The position numbers and the translations under genes are program-made. This document shows positions 35,881 through 55,465 of a stretch of DNA of 60,432 bases, piece by piece. The notes beneath the pieces are model-generated. The model did no database searches and was not told the origin of the DNA. It was given only the letters and a program-made list of their open reading frames with translations. This stretch comes from Blattabacteriaceae bacterium (lineage in GTDB: Bacteria > Bacteroidota > Bacteroidia > Flavobacteriales > Blattabacteriaceae), in NCBI GenBank assembly GCA_036390115.1, contig DASWCM010000006.1, positions 1 to 60,432 on the forward strand. Direction: 5' to 3'. Positions within the stretch are counted from its first letter, which is position 1; each line of letters starts with the position of its first letter.

Positions 35881-36204
35881 TTAAAAAAAATCTTCTTCAA
35901 AAACATTTTCTAATTTAGATTCCAGAATACTTTTTTTTGCGTATCCTATATGTCTATATATTTCTTTTCCACTTTTAAAAAAAACTAGAGTAGGGATACT
36001 TCGTATATTGAATTCTTTAGCAATTTCAGGATGTTTCTCCACATTAACTTTTACAATAAAAGCTTTTCCTTTATATTTTTCTGCTAATTCGTCTATCTCT
36101 GCCGAGATAGCTAAGCAAGGACCACACCAAGGTGCCCAAAAATCTACTAGAACAGGAGTTTTAGATTGGAAAAAAACTTTTTTTAAATTTATTTCTTTTG
36201 CCAT
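35881..36204 (-). CDS. trxA: Thioredoxin
   Basis: A 107-residue disulfide reductase with the active site FWAPWCGPC (C27, C30), the cis-proline loop IRSIPTLVFFKSG and GYAKKSILESKL. It is the last gene of the arginine operon, starting inside the argB end (44-bp overlap). Its presence suggests that a thioredoxin reductase exists elsewhere, for ribonucleotide reductase or sulfur metabolism. Confidence 0.95.
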   Translation of the reverse strand: MAKEINLKKVFFQSKTPVLVDFWAPWCGPCLAISAEIDELAEKYKGKAFIVKVNVEKHPEIAKEFNIRSIPTLVFFKSGKEIYRHIGYAKKSILESKLENVFEEDFF

Positions 36205-36988
36205 ATTTTTCTTTTTTTAATGTTAAAATTGTTCCATATTTTTTTTTCTCTATAAAAAGACCTATTTTTACGAGAGTAACTCCAGCTTTTAAAGCTAAAA
36301 AAGCACTTTCTAATTTAGTAATCATGCCATCTGCAATTACTTTCTTTTTTTTCAATTCTTGGTAGGTCTTTTCATCCATTTTATGAATAAATGAATTATC
36401 ATTTTTTAGATCAAGTAAAACACCTTTTTTTTCAAATACAAAGTGTAAACTAACCTTATGATGCGAAATTAGAGATTCTGCCACATTTGCAGCAATATTA
36501 TCTGCGTTGGTATTTAGCAAACCACCATTTCCATCATGGGTAATTGAACACATAACAGGAATAAATCCCTTTTCAAGAAGAAAATTTAGAAAAGGAAGGT
36601 TTAAACTTTTTTTACTTAAATTTCCTACATTCCCATACCCATAATTTCTTTCCCTTAAAGAAGGTCTAAAAGCTTTAATAAAATTTCCATCTGCTCCAGA
36701 AAATCCTAACGCAAGACAACCTAAAGATTGTAGAAAACACACTATTTTTTTATTAATAAGTCCAGCATATATCATAGTGACAACGTCAAGTGTTATATCA
36801 TCCGTAATTCGTCTTCCATTAAAGAAATAAGAATAAACGCCTAATATTTCAGAAACTTTTCCACAAATTTTTCCACCTCCATGAATTAATATTTTACCTC
36901 CATCAAGCTTATGAAAAGCTGTTAAAGAATCCTTTAACAGATCTACATTATCGATAATATTTCCTCCTATTTTTATTAAATGAATCAC
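36161..36988 (-). CDS. argB: Acetylglutamate (or succinylglutamate) kinase
   Basis: Phosphorylates N-acylglutamate, the second step of arginine synthesis. The 275-residue amino-acid kinase has KIGGNII, ILIHGGGK, GFSGADGNFIKA, NTNADNIAANVAESL and ADGMITKLESAFLALKAGV. The C-terminus extends beyond the usual end by a basic tail (about 18 residues) that overlaps trxA by 44 bp, and the start overlaps argF' by 41 bp. The acyl group used depends on the carbamoyltransferase next door. Confidence 0.94.
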   Translation of the reverse strand: MIHLIKIGGNIIDNVDLLKDSLTAFHKLDGGKILIHGGGKICGKVSEILGVYSYFFNGRRITDDITLDVVTMIYAGLINKKIVCFLQSLGCLALGFSGADGNFIKAFRPSLRERNYGYGNVGNLSKKSLNLPFLNFLLEKGFIPVMCSITHDGNGGLLNTNADNIAANVAESLISHHKVSLHFVFEKKGVLLDLKNDNSFIHKMDEKTYQELKKKKVIADGMITKLESAFLALKAGVTLVKIGLFIEKKKYGTILTLKKEKYGKRNKFKKSFFPI

Positions 36989-37943
36989 TTAATATTTTTT
37001 TGAGAATTTCAATGAAAACTGTTTGTGTAGAAAAAATTCTGTTTTCAGCTTGTTGAAAAACAAGAGAATTTTTTCCGTCTAGTACAGAATCTTCCACCAC
37101 TATTCCTCTTCGGACGGGAAGACAATGCATAAACTTCCCGTTATTAGTTAAACTCATTTTTTCTTTTGTAATTCTCCAATTAGTATCTTGAGAAAGTATT
37201 TTTCCGTATGATAAATAACTGCTCCAATTTTTAGCATAAATAAAATCAGCCCCTTCAAAAGCTTCCTTTTGATCATAAGTTATTTTTGCCATTTTACTAA
37301 AACGTTTATCTAGTTCATACTCTTTTGGATGAGTAATAACTAAATCAACTTTCGAAAGTTCGGATACCCATTGCAGAAAAGAATTAGGGACTGAATGAGG
37401 TAAAACTCTTACATGTGGAGCCCAACTTAATACAACCTTAATCCTTTTTTTTTTAGTCGGACGGAATTCTTCAATGGTAATTACATCAGCTAAGGATTGC
37501 AGAGGATGCAAAGTTGCACTCTCTAGACTAACTACAGGTACTCTAGAATAATTTTTTATTTTTTTTAAAAAAAGTTCTTTGGAATCATAAGATCTATCTA
37601 AAAATTTTGGAAAAGTTCGTACTCCTAAAATATCACAATAAAGACTCATTACGTAGATAGCTTCTTTAATGTGTTCTTGACTTTTTTCCATAACAGTTCC
37701 ATCATTCATTTCTATTTTCCAAGAATCATTCTCTGTATTTAAGATCCAAATATTGACTCCTAAATTAAAAGCAGCCTTTTGACTACTTAAACGAGTACGT
37801 AAGCTTGGATTAAAAAAAACTAAACCTATAGTTTTTTTTTCTCCTATTTTTTGGAAATAATAAGGATTTTTTTTTAAATACTTAACCTTTTCAATGAGGA
37901 TCCGTAAATCCTCTACATCTTCTATACTTAGAAATTGGTTCAT
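36948..37943 (-). CDS. argF': N-acylornithine carbamoyltransferase (acetyl- or succinylornithine type)
   Basis: The 331-residue product resembles the Bacteroidetes N-succinyl/N-acetylornithine transcarbamylases more than ordinary OTCase. It has NPSLRTRLSSQKAA (carbamoyl-phosphate site), ESATLHPLQSLADVITIEE, VPNSFLQW, DFIYAKNWSSY and HCLPVRRGI. The residue known to set the acyl preference (Glu in acetylornithine, Pro in succinylornithine enzymes) appears here as Gln 89 in KSQEH, so specificity is open. It overlaps carB by 53 bp and argB by 41 bp. The deacylase (argE-like) needed afterwards is not in the window. Confidence 0.88.
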   Translation of the reverse strand: MNQFLSIEDVEDLRILIEKVKYLKKNPYYFQKIGEKKTIGLVFFNPSLRTRLSSQKAAFNLGVNIWILNTENDSWKIEMNDGTVMEKSQEHIKEAIYVMSLYCDILGVRTFPKFLDRSYDSKELFLKKIKNYSRVPVVSLESATLHPLQSLADVITIEEFRPTKKKRIKVVLSWAPHVRVLPHSVPNSFLQWVSELSKVDLVITHPKEYELDKRFSKMAKITYDQKEAFEGADFIYAKNWSSYLSYGKILSQDTNWRITKEKMSLTNNGKFMHCLPVRRGIVVEDSVLDGKNSLVFQQAENRIFSTQTVFIEILKKILSDSFNKNRRKYYR

Positions 37944-40900
37944 TGTAAGTATCTAAAGATACTGGATAAAGATCATCTATCGATAGTTTGCAAAAAGCAT
38001 TTATAAAAGTTTTTGCTAAACAGCAATCAGTTATTAAAGGAATGTTTAAGTCTATTGCAGCCCTACGAATGACATAATCATCATCTAAATTTATTAATTT
38101 TTTAGAAATGTTAATAACAACGTCCAATTTTTCTACTTTCATAATATATTTCGACCCATGTATAAAAATGGATTTTATCCCTTGTTTATACAATAAATTC
38201 CAATACTTCCATGTAGCAAATAGAGCATAGATTTTTAATGCTTCAATTTCGAAAAATAAGGCATTAATGAAAATGTTTTTTTCATTAATTCGGTATCCAG
38301 CCGAAAACATCGCTTTCATTAAAGCTTCTTCTAAGCTTATACCAATACTTGCCACTTCTCCAGTTGAAGTCATCTCAACTCCGAGAATGGGATCAGATCC
38401 ATGTAGGCGAGAAAAAGAAAATTGAGAAGCTTTCACCCCCAAAAAACTCATATTTAAATTTTTATTTTTCCAAAAAAGTTTTTTACCAAAAATAGCCTTT
38501 GTAGCTAAATCGATCATGTTAATATTCGAAACTTTTGAAACTAAAGGGAAGCTTCTCGATGCCCTTAAATTACACTCTATTACTTGAATATGATTATTTT
38601 CAAGTAAAAATTGGATATTAAAAGGACCAGAAATATTAAAATGTTTAGCAATTTTTTGAGATAGTCTTTCTATTTTTTTTCTAGAAAAGAACCCAATATT
38701 TTTTGGTGGATAAATTAAAGTAGCGTCACCTGAATGGATTCCAGCAAATTCCACATGTTCAGAAATTGCATAAAAAAAAATTTTACCAAAAGCAGCAACT
38801 GCGTCAAATTCAATTTCTTTAGCATTTTCAATAAATTTGCTTAAAACTATAGTATGTTCTGTAGCTATTTTTCCATATTTTTTAATATAAAAATTAAAAT
38901 AATCATAATTGTAAACTACTTGCATTGATGCACCTGAAAGAACATAAGAAGGACGTAGTAGAACTGGAAATCCAACTTTTTTAGTAAAATCTTCAGCATA
39001 AGAAAAATCAGAGAATTCTTGCCAAAGTGGCTGACTAATTCCTAGAATATCTAAAGACTTAGAAAAAATATGTCTGTTTTCCACCTTATCAATAGAAATA
39101 GGAGAAGTGCCTAATACAGGAATACCGCTTTTATAGAGTTTTAAAGCTAAATTATTGGTAATTTGTCCTCCCATAGAGGCTATTATTCCTAAAGGTTTTT
39201 CTAGTTCTAGAATATCTAAAATACGTTCAATACTAAGCTCTTCAAAATAAAGCCTATCACATTTGTCAAAATCAGTACTAACTGTTTCTGGATTATAGTT
39301 TATCATCAAAGATTGATATCCTATTTCTTTAATAGTTTCTAGTGTTTTAACACTACACCAATCAAATTCCACGCTGCTACCAATGCGATATACACCTGAT
39401 CCTAAAATTAGTATGGATTTTCTATTGCAGATTACATCATGTTTAGCTGCGTGATAGCTTAGATAAAGGTAATTCGTATTTGCAGGATATTCAGCAGCCA
39501 ATGTATCAACTCTGCGTATAAAAGGAATAATTGATAGAGATTTTCTATTTTTTCTTATATATTTTGATACTCTCTGGAAATCTTCTTCAACCACAAAAAA
39601 ACTTGCAATCTGTTCATCTGAAAACCCTTGCTTTTTAGATTCTATTAAAGATTTATATGGAATTTTAGACCAATTTCCATAAGAAATAAAATTATTTTTT
39701 GTTAGGAATAAACTTTCTAATCTTTTCAAGAACCAAGGGTTTATCATTGTAAGATGATGAATTTCCTCAATAGTAAATCCAGCATAAAAAGCTGATTCTA
39801 TTACTTGAATACGTTTATCTGTTGGGTTTTTCAGCATTTCCTCAATCATTTCATGGGTAGTTAAAAAAAGCTTTTTCGGGTTAATAAAACCTAGGAGGCC
39901 TAGATCAAGCATCCGAAGACCTTTTTGTAAAGCTTCTTCAAAAGATCCACCGAGAGACATTACCTCTCCAACACTTTTCATGCTGCTACTAATTTTTTGG
40001 TAAACACTATCAAATTTTTTAAGGTCCCAACGGGGTAATTTACAAACGATATAATCTAAAGCTGGTTCAAAAAAAGCTGAAGTTATTCCAGTAATAATAT
40101 TATTAAGCTTATGTAAGCCATAACCTAATGCAAGCTTAGAGGCTATAAAAGCTAATGGATAAGCAGTTGCTTTAGAGGCAAGGGCACTTGAACGAGAAAG
40201 ACGTGCATTAACTTCAATGACGCGGTAATCTACTGAATTTGGAGATAAAGCAAACTGGACATTACACTCTCCAATAATACCAAAATGACGAATAATTCGA
40301 GTAGAAATATCTCTTAGATTATAAGATTCGGAATTACTCAAAGTCTGAGAAGGTGCCACAACAACGCTTTCTCCAGTATGAACCCCAATTGGGTCAATAT
40401 TTTCCATATTACAAACAGCAATACAATTATCGAAACGATCACGAATAACTTCATATTCTATTTCTTTCCATCCTTTAAGAGATTCCTCTAGAATAATTTT
40501 ATTCGTATACGAAAAAGCTTTTACAGCTATAAATTTTAGTTCATTAATATCATACGCAAATCCACTTCCTAAGCCCCCCAAAGCATAAGAAGAACGAACT
40601 ATCATGGGAAATCCCACTTCTTCAGCTTTTTTCATAGCTTTTTCAATAGAATCCACTGCTACACTTATTGCATTTTTTATTCCAAGAGTTTGGAGCTCTT
40701 TACGAAAAAGAGCCCTGTCTTCACTTCTAACAATAGACTGAATTGGAGTTCCTAATACTTTTAGTTTATATTTTTCAATAATTCCTTTTTTATAGAGTTC
40801 GAGCCCACAACTCAAGGCCGTTTGGCCACCAAACGCCAATATTAAACCATCAGGGGTTTCTTTTTGTATAACCTGTTCTACAAAATAAGCATGTATAGGT

Positions 40901-41088
40901 AAAAGATAAACCTTATCGGCTATTCCTTCGGAAGTTTGGACTGTGGCAACATTAGGATTAATTAGGACGGTAAAAATTCCTTCCTCTCTAATGGCTTTTA
41001 ATGCTTGAGTTCCAGAGTAATCAAATTCACCAGCTTCTCCAATTTTCAATGCACCTGAACCTATTAGAAGAACTTTCTTAATTTTCAT
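37891..41088 (-). CDS. carB: Carbamoyl-phosphate synthase large subunit
   Basis: Makes carbamoyl phosphate for arginine and pyrimidines from ammonia, bicarbonate and two ATP. The 1065-residue product has two homologous halves. The first has KKVLLIGSGALKIGEAGEFDYSG, RSSYALGGLGSGFAYD and EVNARLSRSSALASKATAYPLAF. The second has ILILGSGVYRIGSSVEFDW and RPSYVLSGASMQVVYN. The C-terminal allosteric MGS-like domain is reduced and divergent. Overlaps: 11 bp with carA, 53 bp with argF'. Confidence 0.96.
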   Translation of the reverse strand: MKIKKVLLIGSGALKIGEAGEFDYSGTQALKAIREEGIFTVLINPNVATVQTSEGIADKVYLLPIHAYFVEQVIQKETPDGLILAFGGQTALSCGLELYKKGIIEKYKLKVLGTPIQSIVRSEDRALFRKELQTLGIKNAISVAVDSIEKAMKKAEEVGFPMIVRSSYALGGLGSGFAYDINELKFIAVKAFSYTNKIILEESLKGWKEIEYEVIRDRFDNCIAVCNMENIDPIGVHTGESVVVAPSQTLSNSESYNLRDISTRIIRHFGIIGECNVQFALSPNSVDYRVIEVNARLSRSSALASKATAYPLAFIASKLALGYGLHKLNNIITGITSAFFEPALDYIVCKLPRWDLKKFDSVYQKISSSMKSVGEVMSLGGSFEEALQKGLRMLDLGLLGFINPKKLFLTTHEMIEEMLKNPTDKRIQVIESAFYAGFTIEEIHHLTMINPWFLKRLESLFLTKNNFISYGNWSKIPYKSLIESKKQGFSDEQIASFFVVEEDFQRVSKYIRKNRKSLSIIPFIRRVDTLAAEYPANTNYLYLSYHAAKHDVICNRKSILILGSGVYRIGSSVEFDWCSVKTLETIKEIGYQSLMINYNPETVSTDFDKCDRLYFEELSIERILDILELEKPLGIIASMGGQITNNLALKLYKSGIPVLGTSPISIDKVENRHIFSKSLDILGISQPLWQEFSDFSYAEDFTKKVGFPVLLRPSYVLSGASMQVVYNYDYFNFYIKKYGKIATEHTIVLSKFIENAKEIEFDAVAAFGKIFFYAISEHVEFAGIHSGDATLIYPPKNIGFFSRKKIERLSQKIAKHFNISGPFNIQFLLENNHIQVIECNLRASRSFPLVSKVSNINMIDLATKAIFGKKLFWKNKNLNMSFLGVKASQFSFSRLHGSDPILGVEMTSTGEVASIGISLEEALMKAMFSAGYRINEKNIFINALFFEIEALKIYALFATWKYWNLLYKQGIKSIFIHGSKYIMKVEKLDVVINISKKLINLDDDYVIRRAAIDLNIPLITDCCLAKTFINAFCKLSIDDLYPVSLDTYNEPISKYRRCRGFTDPH

Positions 41089-42154
41089 TGGATCCTTTAA
41101 TTAGATCAATAAAATAATCAAACAAAAATTCAGTATCATTTGTACCTCCAAAAGCTTCAGGGTGAAATTGCACAGAAAAAAAAGGGGTTTTTGTATGTAT
41201 AATACCCTCGCAACTTTGATCATTTAGATTTTTGAAGAATATTTTCCATTGATCAGGAATTATTTTGGAATCAATCACATAACCATGGTTTTGTGAGGTT
41301 ATGTACGCTTTATTGGTAGCACTCAATATTACTGGTTGATTATAGCTTCTATGACCATATTTAAGTTTTCTCGTTATAGAGCCTGTGGATACACCGAGTA
41401 GTTGATTACCAAGGCAAATGCCAAAAACAGGCTTATTCCATCTTAATGCTTTTCTAAGATGTAGAATAGTTTCTTGGTACTCATTAGGATTTCCAGGTCC
41501 ATTGGAAAGAAAGATTCCGTCATAATATTTTTCCTTAGTAAAATCATAATTACAAGGTACACGAATAATTGAACAATTTCGTATAAGCAAACATCGTAGA
41601 ATGTTATTTTTTACTCCACAATCAACCAGTAATATTTTGTATCGACCATTTCCATAAATAATTTTTTCTTTAATGGATATCTTCTCATTTTCTTTGCTGG
41701 AATCGAAAAAGGTAATGTTTTTCTCAAAACAGAAGATTTTTCCAAGCATAGTCCCTCGTTTTCTAAGTATTTTTGTTAAGCATCTAGTATCCAATCCATA
41801 AAGACCTGGAACTTTATATTCTTTTAACCAATTGGATAGATTTTTAAACATTTTCCCATTAATATGGGAATAATCTGAAACAATCAAACCTGAAACATGA
41901 ACTTTATTTGATTCATAAAATCTAGAGATCAATTTTTTGGATAAGGGAGAACTAGGTACCCCATAGTTTCCTATACTAGGATAAGTAAAAAGTAAGATTT
42001 GACCAAAATAGGAAGGATCTGTTAAGCTTTCCACATATCCAGTCATAGGAGTATTAAAAACTACTTCACCATAAGAAGATATAGGAGCGCCTAAATGATA
42101 TGCTTCATATTTTTCTCCATTTTCTATATGAAGAAAAGCAATTTTTTTTTTCAT
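41078..42154 (-). CDS. carA: Carbamoyl-phosphate synthase small subunit
   Basis: The glutaminase that feeds ammonia to CarB. The 358-residue product has the CPSase N-terminal domain (FNTPMTGYVESLTDPSYFGQ) and a class I amidotransferase with nucleophile C247 in FGICLGNQLL and H331/E333 in FHPEAFGG. All catalytic residues are present. It follows argD by 1 bp and overlaps carB by 11 bp. Confidence 0.96.
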   Translation of the reverse strand: MKKKIAFLHIENGEKYEAYHLGAPISSYGEVVFNTPMTGYVESLTDPSYFGQILLFTYPSIGNYGVPSSPLSKKLISRFYESNKVHVSGLIVSDYSHINGKMFKNLSNWLKEYKVPGLYGLDTRCLTKILRKRGTMLGKIFCFEKNITFFDSSKENEKISIKEKIIYGNGRYKILLVDCGVKNNILRCLLIRNCSIIRVPCNYDFTKEKYYDGIFLSNGPGNPNEYQETILHLRKALRWNKPVFGICLGNQLLGVSTGSITRKLKYGHRSYNQPVILSATNKAYITSQNHGYVIDSKIIPDQWKIFFKNLNDQSCEGIIHTKTPFFSVQFHPEAFGGTNDTEFLFDYFIDLIKGSNEN

Positions 42155-42155
42155 T

Positions 42156-43295
42156 TTAGGATTCCAAAGAACGGACCAGTTTTTTTATAAATAATTTTAC
42201 ATTATCTTTTGTTAGATTTAGGGGAGGGAATAATCTTAAAACGTAAGGATCATAAGAAAATCCAACAAATACTTTTTCCTGATTTATCAGAACTTCTATT
42301 AATTTTTTTACAGGGAAATTAAACCGTAATCCTATCATGAATCCCCGACCTCTTATTTCCTCAATATGAGGAATATCTTGCAAGTGTTTCAATAATTCTT
42401 CTCCGATTATTTTAACGTTTTTTAAAAGGTTTTCGTTTTTAATAACTTCCAAAACAGAAATAGCAGCTACACAAGCTAAATAATTTCCTCCAAAAGTACT
42501 GCCTAACATTCCATTAAATTCTTCAAATTTTGGGTTGATAAGGACCCCACCAATCGGAAACCCATTTCCCATACCTTTAGCTAAAGATATAAGATCTGGA
42601 TTTACTCCAGATCGCTGATGTGCAAAAAAATCTCCAGTTCTGCCATATCCACTTTGGATTTCATCCAGTATGAAAACGGTTTCATAATATCTGCACATAT
42701 TTTGTATTTCACGTAAAAAAAAATCTCCAGGATCAATTATTCCAGAGATTCCTTGTATTCCTTCAGTAATAAGAGCACAAACGTTCCTTTTTCTTAATTC
42801 TTTTTCCACAGATAACAAATCTTTATAGTTTAAAAAAACTACTTCATGCTTAGAATTGAATGGGGCTAAAATTTTTGTATTGTCCGTAATAGATGTTGAG
42901 CCGCTTGTTCGACCATGAAAAGAACCCTTAAAAGCTATGATCTTTTTTTTTCTGTTATGAAACGAAGCAATTTTAAGAGCATTTTCTATAGATTCAGTAC
43001 CAGAATTGCATAAAAAAAGTTTATAATCTTCATAACCAGATACATCACAAAGTAATTCTGATAATCTTTCCTGATTAGAGATGTTAACATAATTTGAATA
43101 GAAAGTAATTTTATTTATTTGGTCCTGTAAAGCTTTTATATAATGTGAATGTAAGTGCCCAATTGAAACCACAGCATGTCCACCATAAAAATCTAAATAC
43201 CTTTGTCCATTTTCGTCAAATAAGTGGAACCCAGAACCTTTTATTAATTCTATAGGAATAGAATTATAAACGTTGAATAATCTTTGGTGGATCAT
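42156..43295 (-). CDS. argD: Acylornithine aminotransferase
   Basis: A class III PLP aminotransferase of 379 residues. It has FYGGHAVVSIGHLH, CNSGTESIENALK, SFHGRTSGS, LDEIQSGYGRTG and the PLP lysine K240 in SLAKGMGNGFPIGG. It converts N-acylglutamate semialdehyde to N-acylornithine. In reduced genomes the same enzyme can also serve lysine synthesis; nothing here tests that. It lies 3 bp after argC. Confidence 0.94.
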   Translation of the reverse strand: MIHQRLFNVYNSIPIELIKGSGFHLFDENGQRYLDFYGGHAVVSIGHLHSHYIKALQDQINKITFYSNYVNISNQERLSELLCDVSGYEDYKLFLCNSGTESIENALKIASFHNRKKKIIAFKGSFHGRTSGSTSITDNTKILAPFNSKHEVVFLNYKDLLSVEKELRKRNVCALITEGIQGISGIIDPGDFFLREIQNMCRYYETVFILDEIQSGYGRTGDFFAHQRSGVNPDLISLAKGMGNGFPIGGVLINPKFEEFNGMLGSTFGGNYLACVAAISVLEVIKNENLLKNVKIIGEELLKHLQDIPHIEEIRGRGFMIGLRFNFPVKKLIEVLINQEKVFVGFSYDPYVLRLFPPLNLTKDNVKLFIKKLVRSLES

Positions 43296-43298
43296 GTT

Positions 43299-44270
43299 CT
43301 AAAATAGTGAAGGTTTTAATTTGAGGCCACAATCCTCTTCCCATCCTTGCATGATGTTCATGTTTTGTACAGCTTGACCTGAAGAACCTTTTAAAAGGTT
43401 ATCAATTATGGATGTTATGATAATTTTTCCATTTTTCAAAGATAAATGTAAAAAACATTTATTAGTGCCTATTACCTGCTTTAAATCTAGTTCTCTTTCT
43501 GAGAGAGAAACAAATGGATGTTTTTTATAATAACTCTGATATAGATCTTTATTCTCATCTAGAGAATAAAGGGAATCGGTATAAACTGTTGAAATAATTC
43601 CTCTAGAAAAATTACCTCTATAAGGCACTAGAAAAATTTCTTTCTGAAAAGATTTTTGGTATCGATGAATTACTTCTCTAATCTCATTTAAATGATGATG
43701 GATAAAAATATTGTAAGAGGAAATGTTATTATTTCTCCAGCTAAAATGAATTTTTTCATTTAGAGCCTTTCCTGCTCCAGTAGATCCAGTAATAGCACTT
43801 ATATGAATATCACTTTTCAAACATTGAGCATAGGCTAGAGGCAAAATCGCTATCTGAATAGCTGTTGCAAAACAACCAGGATTTGCAACAGATATAGCCT
43901 TTCTAATTATAGACCTTTGTTGTTCTGGTAATCCATAGATAAATGATCGCATTCCAAATGCAGAATGTTCGATTAATCTAAAATCATTACTTAAATCTAT
44001 CACATTTGAGCGATCAGCTATATTTTTTATAGCTTCTCTGGAAGTTCCAGGATGGAGGCATAGAAAAACGACATCAACATCTTCATCTAATTTTTTAGTG
44101 AATTTAATTTCAGTTTCCCCAAGTAAATCAAAGTGAACTGAATAAAGAGGATTTTCGAACTCCCTAACACTTACTACGCTAGTGAGATCCACTCTTGGAT
44201 GAGATAAGAGTAACCTAATCAATTCTCCAGCAGTATAACCTGCTCCTCCTATAATGCCAGTTTTAATCAT
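43299..44270 (-). CDS. argC: N-acetyl-gamma-glutamyl-phosphate reductase
   Basis: The third arginine-pathway step, NADPH-dependent. The 323-residue product has the Rossmann start GIIGGAGYTAGELIRLLLSHP and the catalytic cysteine C133 in VANPGCFATA. GSTGAGKAL and HHHLNEI, a conserved histidine region, also fit. Its start overlaps the argG stop by 4 bp. Confidence 0.95.
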   Translation of the reverse strand: MIKTGIIGGAGYTAGELIRLLLSHPRVDLTSVVSVREFENPLYSVHFDLLGETEIKFTKKLDEDVDVVFLCLHPGTSREAIKNIADRSNVIDLSNDFRLIEHSAFGMRSFIYGLPEQQRSIIRKAISVANPGCFATAIQIAILPLAYAQCLKSDIHISAITGSTGAGKALNEKIHFSWRNNNISSYNIFIHHHLNEIREVIHRYQKSFQKEIFLVPYRGNFSRGIISTVYTDSLYSLDENKDLYQSYYKKHPFVSLSERELDLKQVIGTNKCFLHLSLKNGKIIITSIIDNLLKGSSGQAVQNMNIMQGWEEDCGLKLKPSLF

Positions 44271-45982
44271 TTAATGCTGTGATAAATTTTCATCTGATTT
44301 CCAAAAATTTTGGTGAACCCTTTCACATCTTTTTCAGACCATTCATAGTTCATTTCTCCATACTGTGCAACTTTAGATTGCATCATGTCAAATTCAGAAC
44401 AAATACCAACTAATTCAAATCTATATGGATGTAAAAGTACAGTTACTTTTCCGCTTACTCTTTTTTGACTATTCTGTAGAAAAGCTTCAATATTTCTCAT
44501 TACTGGATCTAGATATTGGGCTTCATGCAATAAAGTTCCATAGGAATTAGCTAATTGATCTTTCCAATATATTTGCCATTTTGTCAAAACATGCTTTTCA
44601 ATAAATTGATGAGCTTTAATAATAATTAAAGCTGCTGGAGCTTCGAAGGCTACTTTACCTTTAATACCAAGAATAGTATCTCCTACATGAAACTCTCTTC
44701 CTATAGCGAAGGAAGAAGAAATTTCTCCTAATTTAAGAATGTTTTCCACAGGATTTCCCTCCCTTTTATTAAGAGAGACAAACTCTCCTTTTTCAAATCC
44801 TAATTCTATTTTCTCCTTATTAGTTTTCCTTAAAGGAGTCGGATAAGCTTCTTCTGGAATATTTTTACTCGAATTGAGAGTTTCAGCTCCCCCTATGCTA
44901 GTTCCCCAAATACCCTTATTTATAGAATATTTGGATTTCTCTCTGGCGATTTCTAGACCTTTTTTTTGCAGATATTTTATTTCTTCTTTTCTAGAAAGTT
45001 TGTTCTCTCTTATGGGAGAAAGAATAACTTTCTCTGGACAAAGTATTTGAAAAGCTAAATCGAAGCGGATTTGATCATTCCCAGCTCCAGTACTTCCATG
45101 TGCAATAGCGTTAGCTTTTATAGAATTAGCGTATTCTGCAATTTTTATGGCTTGGAAAAATCTTTCTGAACTAACTGAAAGTGGATATGTATTATTTTTT
45201 AATACATTGCCAAATATTAGGTATTTTACACCTCTACAATAATACTCTTTGGTTGCTTCAATGTTTTGGTGATATTTAGCTCCTATTTGGAACGCTCTAT
45301 TTTCAATGTTTTTTAGTTCTTCTTTAGAAAACCCTCCAGTATTAACCATAGCAGTATGCACTTCATATCCTTCTTCAAGGAGAAATTTCAAGCAGTACGA
45401 AGTATCTAATCCCCCACTATAAGCTAAGACTACCTTATTTTCTCTCTTTTCTTCCTTATTTTTAGGATTATATAATAAGCCTGTGCATAAACACATTCTT
45501 TTTTTATTTCGCAGGAGTATGTCATAATTTGTGCAACTTTTACATCCTTTCCAAAAATTTTCATCTTGTGTAAGCTGGTTAAATGATACAGGAACAAAAC
45601 CTAATTCCGTATTTATTTTAAATACAGAGGAATTCGTGGTTATGCTAAATATTTTAGCTTTCGGAAATTTTTTTATAGAAAGTTTAAAAATTTCATATTT
45701 AATGGATTTTGCTAATCCTTTATGTCTGAATGGAGGAAATACGATTAGTCCAGAATTCGCTACAAATTGTTTTTTCTGAAAGACTTCAATATAACCGAAT
45801 CCAGCAATCTGCTTATCATAAAAAGCCATTACCGCATCCCCATTTATTATTTTAGTTTTAATATATTCAGGATCTCTTTTAGAGATTCCTGTACCTCTTA
45901 TCCTTGCAGAATCCTTTATTTGCGAACATATTAAAGAAATATATTTAGAATCATCAGGGGTGGCTATTCTTATTTCTACCAT
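44267..45982 (-). CDS. argG: GNAT acetyltransferase-argininosuccinate synthase fusion
   Basis: A single 571-residue frame. Residues 1-170 form a GNAT N-acetyltransferase: substrate region ARIRGTGISKRDPEYI, acetyl-CoA loop RHKGLA (86-91), then a cysteine group C147-x2-C150 and C164-x-C166. Residues 182-571 are argininosuccinate synthase: ATP loop AYSGGLDTSYCLKFL, HGSTGAGNDQIRFDLAF, EREHVGDT-like REFHVGDTILG and SYGTLLHEAQYLDP. In many Bacteroidetes a separate GNAT gene precedes argG and is thought to supply acylglutamate; here the two are joined by a 12-residue charged linker. I infer a bifunctional first-step/late-step arginine enzyme. An internal start at M163 cannot be excluded. Head of the arginine operon. 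Confidence 0.92.
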   Translation of the reverse strand: MVEIRIATPDDSKYISLICSQIKDSARIRGTGISKRDPEYIKTKIINGDAVMAFYDKQIAGFGYIEVFQKKQFVANSGLIVFPPFRHKGLAKSIKYEIFKLSIKKFPKAKIFSITTNSSVFKINTELGFVPVSFNQLTQDENFWKGCKSCTNYDILLRNKKRMCLCTGLLYNPKNKEEKRENKVVLAYSGGLDTSYCLKFLLEEGYEVHTAMVNTGGFSKEELKNIENRAFQIGAKYHQNIEATKEYYCRGVKYLIFGNVLKNNTYPLSVSSERFFQAIKIAEYANSIKANAIAHGSTGAGNDQIRFDLAFQILCPEKVILSPIRENKLSRKEEIKYLQKKGLEIAREKSKYSINKGIWGTSIGGAETLNSSKNIPEEAYPTPLRKTNKEKIELGFEKGEFVSLNKREGNPVENILKLGEISSSFAIGREFHVGDTILGIKGKVAFEAPAALIIIKAHQFIEKHVLTKWQIYWKDQLANSYGTLLHEAQYLDPVMRNIEAFLQNSQKRVSGKVTVLLHPYRFELVGICSEFDMMQSKVAQYGEMNYEWSEKDVKGFTKIFGNQMKIYHSIK

Positions 45983-45984
45983 AA

Positions 45985-46777
45985 ATTAGTTAATTTTAAA
46001 AAATACAAATATTCGTCTAATTTTTTTTTTATATGAATAAACTGAAACCTAAGGTTTTTTATTTTTTCGTTTGAATAAAGCCCTTTATATGGAAATTTCT
46101 GAATTTTCTACAAGAGAGAGAGTAGCTTTTTTAGATAAAGTAGGGAGTTCTTTGCTGTATGAAAAAAATCCTTCAAGGAAATATTTTCACTGTTGAGAAT
46201 ATAACGTTCAACAAAATGATTTTCCTCCATTAATTGGATACAACATTTAGCAACATCCATAGCAGATACGAAACTATTCATTCCCTTTAAACGAAGATCT
46301 TTTTTCATTTATACACAACCAAAGAAAAATGGATCTAGGATAATACTTGGTAAACAATTACCACGTTTAAGCCTTCACAAACTTCCATTTAAGAAAAAAA
46401 TTAGATTTCCCATAATAAGAATGCTCATCTTACTCAAAAGAAAAAAAAAAGAATCTTCTGTTATGAATCTAAGGTTAATGTGGAACTTATATAACAAAAT
46501 TTTTTTACCCCATTATTTAGGCAAATGTTAGACGTTCCTTCTATGTTTATTTTCTCTAAAAGTTCGATGTCTTTTTTATATTTAGAAAAAGCTATGATCT
46601 CTTATGCGTGAGACCCATTAATGCCTGAACCCATTCAACTTTTTCCAAAAATTTATTTAAAAGAAAATTATCTAAACAGGTATTTTTTTTTTCTTTAAAG
46701 CGCGATATTCCTTTTTGGAGAAGATTTAACAAAATATAACTACCTACAGAACTTTCTACTACCGTAACAAAGACCAT
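45985..46777 (-). pseudogene. Degraded NAD-dependent epimerase/dehydratase (extended SDR)
   Basis: Pieces in order on the minus strand read: MVFVT..ESSVGSYILLNLLQKG (Rossmann start with the glycine motif eroded), VEWVQA, INIEGTSNIC.NNGVKKFCYISST (SDR core), LPSIILDPFFFG, then FVSAMDVAKCCIQLMEENHF and ERYILNSENISLKDFF, and finally GLYSNEKIKNLRFQFIHIKK at the C-terminus. Stops and frame changes separate them, including loss of the YxxxK region. The original start overlapped the ruvC stop by one base, so it was once coupled to ruvC. Confidence 0.85.
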
Positions 46778-54441: not shown

Positions 54442-55005
54442 TTATAAGCTTTGATAAAACGAGCAACCACCTACCATTTTTGTGTACAATACTATTAGTA
54501 TAGGCTTTCCTTTGCTTTTTTTAGCTATTTCCCATGAGTTAATAACGCATGAAATGTCATGTGCTTGAAGTTCTTCGATGACCTCCCACCCAAAAAATTT
54601 TTCTTTTACTGTTCTATCATTTATTCCATTGCGATAAGCAATATCGATTACTGCTGCCTCCCAAATTTTCCCTTCATTTAACCCATGTAAGCTGTATTGA
54701 TTTAGTTTTTTAGCTAATGACGCACCTACAGAGCCTTGTCCTCGAATTGCACAAGATGCCTTTAATTTTCTATTCAGTTCTCTTATAGAGAAAAATCCTA
54801 TCAATGCGCTATAATATACTGGGTAAATATGAAGGAATACTCCTTTCATACAAAAAATATTTGGATTCTGTCTAAGAACTTGCCAATACATAGCAATAAA
54901 GTATTCCACACATACTAAAGCCCATACAGTATGTCCTGAATTAGAACGTAAGATATCTCTTCTTATTTGTGTACTAACTCTATTAAGTTGTTTAATTTCT
55001 GACAT
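54442..55005 (-). pseudogene. Eroded transketolase N-terminal subunit, still an open frame
   Basis: From MSEIKQLNRVSTQIRRDILR (start 55005) 187 codons stay open and align in order with Bacteroidetes transketolase N-terminal subunits: SGHTVWALVCVEYFIAMYWQ, YSALIGFFS, GSVGASLAKKLNQ, SLHGLNEGKIWEAAV, FFGWEVIEE, KGKPILIVLYTKM. Key pieces are gone: the conserved HPGG after NSG, the GDGEL...N thiamine-diphosphate/Mg motif, and the end of the domain. At about 280 residues the normal protein is much longer. I infer a non-functional remnant with multiple in-frame deletions. No C-terminal subunit follows. Confidence 0.85.
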
Positions 55006-55021
55006 TAATTTAAGAAAAATT

Positions 55022-55465
55022 ATGAAGAAAATAAAAAATACATTGAAAATCTGTATAAATAATAGAAAAGCTTCTTTTGAATATGAATTCATTGAAGAAT
55101 ATATTGCTGGTATCCAATTATTAGGAACTGAAATAAAATCCATTAGACAAAATAAAGCAAGTCTTTCCGAAAGCTTTTGTAAAATTAAAAATGGGGAATT
55201 GTATGCTATTAATATATACATTTCAGAGTATAGAGCTGATGTAAATCATCTACCTAATAGAGATAGAAAACTTCTTTTGAAGAAAAAGGAATTAATAAAA
55301 ATTAGTAAAAAATCAGAAAAGTCTGGACTAACAATTATTCCGAATAAATTATTTATCAATCAAAAAGGATATGCTAAACTTCAAATATTCCTGGCAAAAG
55401 GTAGAAAAATATATGATAAACGGGAAGTTATCAAGAAAAGAGAAAATGAACGTCACTCGTTCTAG
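55022..55465 (+). CDS. smpB: SsrA-binding protein SmpB
   Basis: Partner of tmRNA in ribosome rescue. The 147-residue product has ICINNRKASFEYEFIEEYIAG, LLGTEIKSIRQNKASLSESF, HLPNRDRKLLLKKKEL, GLTIIPNKLFINQKGYAKL and the C-terminal LAKGRKIYDKREVIKKRE, all standard. tmRNA (ssrA) is not in the window. The gene starts 16 bp from the divergent transketolase remnant. Confidence 0.95.
   Translation: MKKIKNTLKICINNRKASFEYEFIEEYIAGIQLLGTEIKSIRQNKASLSESFCKIKNGELYAINIYISEYRADVNHLPNRDRKLLLKKKELIKISKKSEKSGLTIIPNKLFINQKGYAKLQIFLAKGRKIYDKREVIKKRENERHSF

Follow-up and report, generated by a model that had tools for sequence, protein, structure and literature searches.

A predicted glutamate N-acyltransferase is fused to argininosuccinate synthase in the arginine operon of the Blattabacteriaceae

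The stand-alone GNAT acyltransferases of the ArgA2 (BT3761) type in Bacteroidota are predicted N-succinylglutamate synthases. B. thetaiotaomicron requires BT3761 to grow in the absence of amino acids, and arginine rescues the mutants (PMC9026213; PMC7311316). Fusions that include an acylglutamate synthase have been described in other bacteria: Moritella argH(A) carries a short domain of this activity on a late arginine enzyme, and Xanthomonas has a bifunctional N-acetylglutamate synthase-kinase (PMC1865377).

The window, by which we mean the whole stretch of 60,432 nucleotides that was analysed, belongs to a draft genome of 334,739 bases in 8 contigs that is 96.85% complete. Reading of its sequence revealed a GNAT acyltransferase and ArgG within one gene (Table 1), which runs from ATG to TGA without an internal stop. 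A preliminary description of this DNA had claimed a single unbroken frame of 571 codons with an acetyl-CoA loop, an ATP loop and two pairs of cysteines; the frame and the positions of all these elements were confirmed. In a Pfam search the ArgG domain pair was complete (PF00764 at residues 183-343 and PF20979 at 352-567), and the best Foldseek match of this part was PDB 7k5z (E 9.5e-26). The TIGR00032 score of 263.6 bits lay just short of the curated NCBIfam cut-off of 268.2. At E 1e-3 the GNAT part of the window protein was missed by Pfam, its best hit, PF13673 at 0.0012, lying below the cut-off; PF00583 was matched by all 27 aligned members of the acyltransferase family (E<=0.1, best 1.5e-9). 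AlphaFold predicted a GNAT fold for this domain with a pLDDT of 91, and its top Foldseek match was the N-acetylglutamate synthase of N. gonorrhoeae (E 1.9e-9), with other ArgA proteins close behind. The full-length model contained two domains (pTM 0.61) separated by a low-confidence stretch at residues 177-179.

Table 1. Coordinates of the fused gene, its parts and the neighbouring arginine genes in the window
Feature	Position	Strand	Remarks
Fused gene, GNAT acyltransferase (ArgA2 type) + argininosuccinate synthase (ArgG)	44267..45982	-	571 aa
GNAT domain, predicted N-acyl(succinyl)glutamate synthase	45473..45982	-	residues 1-170
Acyl-CoA loop RHKGLA	45710..45727	-	residues 86-91; R86 and G89 invariant in family
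Cys cluster C147xxC150 ... C164xC166	45485..45544	-	invariant in stand-alone GNATs too
Linker YNPKNKEEKR, charged, ~10 residues	45443..45472	-	residues 171-180
ArgG domain	44270..45442	-	residues 181-571; ATP loop SGGLDTS (189-195) at 45398-45418
argC, N-acylglutamyl-phosphate reductase	43299..44270	-	4-base overlap with fusion gene
argD, N-acylornithine aminotransferase	42156..43295	-
carA	41078..42154	-
carB	37891..41088	-
argF', SOTCase-like transcarbamylase	36948..37943	-	48% identity to B. fragilis N-succinylornithine transcarbamylase
argB, N-acylglutamate kinase	36161..36988	-	argE not downstream here

The GNAT domain shared 49% identity with a Bacteroides finegoldii GNAT whose locus order (argR-GNAT-argG-argC-argD) is the BT3761 arrangement, and 56% with a GNAT from Calditrichia. 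Neither another PF00583 GNAT nor ArgJ was found in this genome. Orthologous sequence and fold, a site in the arginine operon beside argG and the lack of any other recognisable glutamate N-acyltransferase place the domain, on these comparisons, among the orthologs of Bacteroidota ArgA2 (BT3761 type). C147, C150, C164 and C166 did not vary among the 27 aligned GNATs, of which 24 are stand-alone, indicating that they are part of the acyltransferase family and not a product of fusion. The preliminary description had the positions of these cysteines right, and its assignment of them to the junction is corrected; a metal site created there is ruled out. A metal-binding or structural role for the four residues is possible.

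Of the GTDB family to which this genome belongs we surveyed 68 members; 56 carry the gene, always as a fusion, and the other 12 gave no match at E 1e-10. In 54 cases a match free of stops covered the whole protein, and for G040 and G062, whose linkers are long, direct reading confirmed the fusion. Among the carriers are Karelsulcia muelleri SMEUTCHI (L056), Blattabacterium cuenoti ALLACbim (L057), a genome that was taken as Walczuchella (G002; PMC3971599) and a family member with a genome of 1.3 Mb (G003). Reversal of the fusion by splitting was observed in none of the 56. The fusion is therefore not an event in this one genome, as had been proposed, but is common to all family members with the gene and of one origin there; this architecture is a diagnostic marker of the family.

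Among free-living relatives the GNAT gene and argG adjoin as two separate genes, as the preliminary description had noted as frequent in Bacteroidetes, and the same adjacent order is found over much of the phylum. Surveys of 398 genomes of the order, 395 of the class and 396 of the phylum detected the fusion outside the family only in f37, the class and phylum searches in practice retaining only matches that spanned both domains, so that fusions with long linkers were possibly missed. In f37, a family of another class, three genomes of 2.4-3.7 Mb (G548, G418 and G579) carry it with a very short linker (L158, L159 and L160). About 20 Flavobacteriales genomes with high 'open frame' counts proved not to be fused, a stop being present between the genes in each. 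The same applies to G556 and G602, where one match spanned the query and a stop was present, and to G902, for which the table showed a stop.

In a tree built from both domains the fused genes of the family formed one clade (SH-aLRT 100), its sister being three genomes with separate genes (SH-aLRT 98), and f37 was placed elsewhere. A single origin for the fusions of the family and of f37 was disfavoured (p-AU 0.021, obtained with a quick tree and a simple model). The fusion arose once in the family, and a second, independent fusion occurred in f37. In a genome of the sister lineage (G070) argG starts at an ATG within the last part of the GNAT gene, read in a different frame. Because of this overlap a frameshift is as likely a route as loss of a stop codon, and one small indel could have joined the two genes. 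The preliminary description had suggested stop loss during genome reduction. The fusion itself stands, stop loss is no likelier than a frameshift, and extreme reduction is not required, since the gene is fused in the 1.3-Mb family member and independently in the larger f37 genomes.

The operon order in the window, fusion-argC-argD-carA-carB-argF'-argB, is the same in Blattabacterium, Karelsulcia and G003, where argE follows; argH is a separate gene on contig C3 (C3:179188-180324). At 35881-36988 of the window argE is missing though argB, argC, argD and argF' are intact. No M20 deacylase (ArgE/DapE; PF01546) was found in this genome or in G001, G002 and G005, while the others have one, and a search of this genome with Blattabacterium ArgE found no argE remnant. 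Without an ArgE-type deacylase the acylated intermediate would need a deacylase of another family, or one supplied by the host or a partner. There is no known catalyst here for the step between the reactions of the two domains, and this is counted against the explanation given below. A promoter scan upstream returned no more hits than expected by chance. The ~790 bases between the fusion gene and ruvC (45983-46776) hold no recognisable gene; short ORFs at 46108-46308 and 46592-46777 resemble, by eye, broken pieces of an NAD-dependent epimerase, for which Pfam gave nothing convincing. Elsewhere in the window, at 54442-55221 on the reverse strand, lies a 259-aa ORF whose match to Transketolase_N is confined to residues 202-249 (E 2e-4); its middle resembles the start of a transketolase by eye, and it may be an eroded transketolase gene. 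In G002 argD and carB gave only partial matches beside an intact fusion gene (L195), in agreement with the pseudogenes in amino acid pathways that the Walczuchella authors report.

The explanation that we favour, at a probability of about 0.78, is a bifunctional arginine enzyme in one chain, with an acyl group that is likely succinyl, derived from an old single fusion that was kept since both domains work. The gene at the head of the operon would be translated as one chain of ~65 kDa. Its N-terminal GNAT domain would acylate glutamate, most likely with succinyl-CoA, to give the first intermediate, which ArgB, ArgC, ArgD and ArgF' would take on to N-acyl-citrulline; once this had been deacylated, the C-terminal ArgG domain would join citrulline and aspartate, and ArgH would then release arginine. 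No direct substrate channel is expected because the two steps are not neighbours. The joining most likely took place in the family ancestor, where a minor mutation would have linked operon genes that were neighbours or overlapped; both domains presumably went on working, loss of the ArgG start codon making reversal hard.

An assembly or sequencing artefact, or read-through of a decaying pseudogene, could be suspected in a draft of 8 contigs. This is refuted by conservation of the frame: 55 relatives, several with single-contig genomes, share it, and a congener that is 94% identical (G001) has the same unbroken frame. No stop interrupts the frame in any of the 56 family members with the gene. 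Both domains are also under purifying selection, with dN/dS far below 1 (0.19 for GNAT and 0.19 for ArgG between the window and the congener; 0.09-0.21 and 0.05-0.38, respectively, in other pairs). The chance of an artefact is negligible, and the union of a first-step with a late-step arginine enzyme, as originally described, is real. The fused frame could in turn yield two proteins, by internal initiation or by proteolysis in a linker that is short, charged and modelled with low confidence. Stand-alone ArgG begins with M-K-K-V-V-L-A-Y-S-G-G in many relatives, and the ancestral methionine has been replaced throughout the family (ENKVVLAYSGG in the window, GDKIVLAYSGG in others). Between C166 and SGGLDTS no in-frame ATG, GTG or TTG was found in the window, the congener, Karelsulcia, Walczuchella, G003 and many Blattabacterium. 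With the ancestral start codon gone and none in the window linker, ArgG should be made only within the long chain. The linkers of a few Blattabacterium (L007, L008, L018, L024 and L042) do contain an in-frame ATG, which favours separate products there; several TTG codons listed for the linker region fall within the first ArgG strand. Proteolytic cleavage or initiation at a rare codon may occur, though two proteins seem improbable overall. The main text of a Karelsulcia holobiont proteome paper, consulted for evidence at the protein level, makes no mention of ArgG.

If one chain is made, its N-terminal domain might still produce N-acetylglutamate from acetyl-CoA, the classical ArgA activity, as the preliminary description had assumed. 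The closest structure is indeed an N-acetylglutamate synthase, and Cabys_1732 of Caldithrix, a family relative, is reported, from unpublished data, to make N-acetylglutamate (PMC5317091); the identity to the Calditrichia GNAT given above points the same way. Against this, ArgF' of the operon is closer to the succinyl enzyme of B. fragilis than to the acetyl enzyme of Xanthomonas (1e-97 vs 1e-55). The acetyl enzyme (AOTCase) has Glu92, Asn185 and Lys302, and the succinyl enzyme has A/S/P/V/Q, P and V/I/E at these places (PMC4581275), a rule that is correlative. ArgF' shows Q, P182 and V282, all of the SOTCase type, the Q standing beside a one-residue gap and depending on the alignment, and it retains the succinyl-holding H176, R178 and R278. 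Moreover, ArgB of B. fragilis is an N-succinylglutamate kinase (PMC7311316). The SOTCase residues of ArgF' favour N-succinylglutamate as the predicted product, making it clearly the likelier of the two, and an acetyl product appears rather unlikely. A gain of function from the fusion itself is less likely again. Such a gain might lie in a 1:1 ratio of the activities, in ArgG oligomers carrying the acyltransferase or in control by arginine or citrulline across domains, and it would suit the independent fusion of the same two domains in the same order on two occasions (AU p 0.021) and the absence of re-splitting. Adjacency in this order over much of the phylum means, however, that a chance fusion always gives the same architecture; reversal was difficult once the ArgG start codon had been lost; linker length and sequence vary widely, which argues against a tight interface; and the pTM of the full-length model is modest. 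Slightly more doubtful still is a family-wide N-succinylglutamate synthase-argininosuccinate synthase of insect symbionts, evolved on two occasions in Bacteroidota, in which entry into arginine synthesis is physically coupled to its late flux, for instance through control of the acyltransferase by the occupancy of ArgG. Most likely the fusion of the two operon genes is old and near-neutral, and became locked in when the start codon of ArgG was lost.

The fusion offers an answer to the 'missing' argA of insect-symbiont reconstructions, the predicted first enzyme being joined to ArgG. In Walczuchella argA was listed as the sole missing arginine gene on the basis of a PICRUSt2 prediction (PMC11064573), and another paper counts arginine as a 'common gap' of Blattabacterium and other Flavobacteriales, leaving the gene unspecified in the text (PMC9603385). 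For Karelsulcia, a 2025 paper left one gene unassigned between argG and argA (PMC12016543), an ambiguity that would be explained by a gene that is both. The fusion changes which arginine steps the host or a partner symbiont must supply, and the sharper puzzle that remains is the absent deacylase of this genome and three relatives.

No description of a GNAT-ArgG fusion was found in the open-access literature searched. Compared with known systems, the N-terminal domain resembles the stand-alone ArgA2/BT3761-type GNATs in orthologous sequence (~49-57%), in its site directly before argG and in the CxxC...CxC cysteines; unlike in the fusion, the GNAT gene there has its own stop and ArgG its own start codon. 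The C-terminal part is a full two-domain ArgG with ATP loop, like PDB 7k5z, 6xnq and 1kh1, from which the window protein differs by a 170-residue N-terminal acyltransferase. The Xanthomonas synthase-kinase is likewise a bifunctional arginine fusion that includes the first step, but it joins consecutive steps 1 and 2 and belongs to another acyltransferase family (DUF619). Moritella argH(A) has ArgH as partner, a COG1246-type ArgA and the acetyl route, in an unrelated lineage, whereas in the window the partner is ArgG, the acyltransferase is N-terminal and ArgH is encoded separately. The ArgA part of argH(A) is at the opposite end of the chain. argH(A) is a functional precedent in that an acylglutamate-synthase domain is likewise carried by an enzyme acting late in arginine synthesis, and the fusion, apparently undescribed as such, is a known kind of gene with a new partner.
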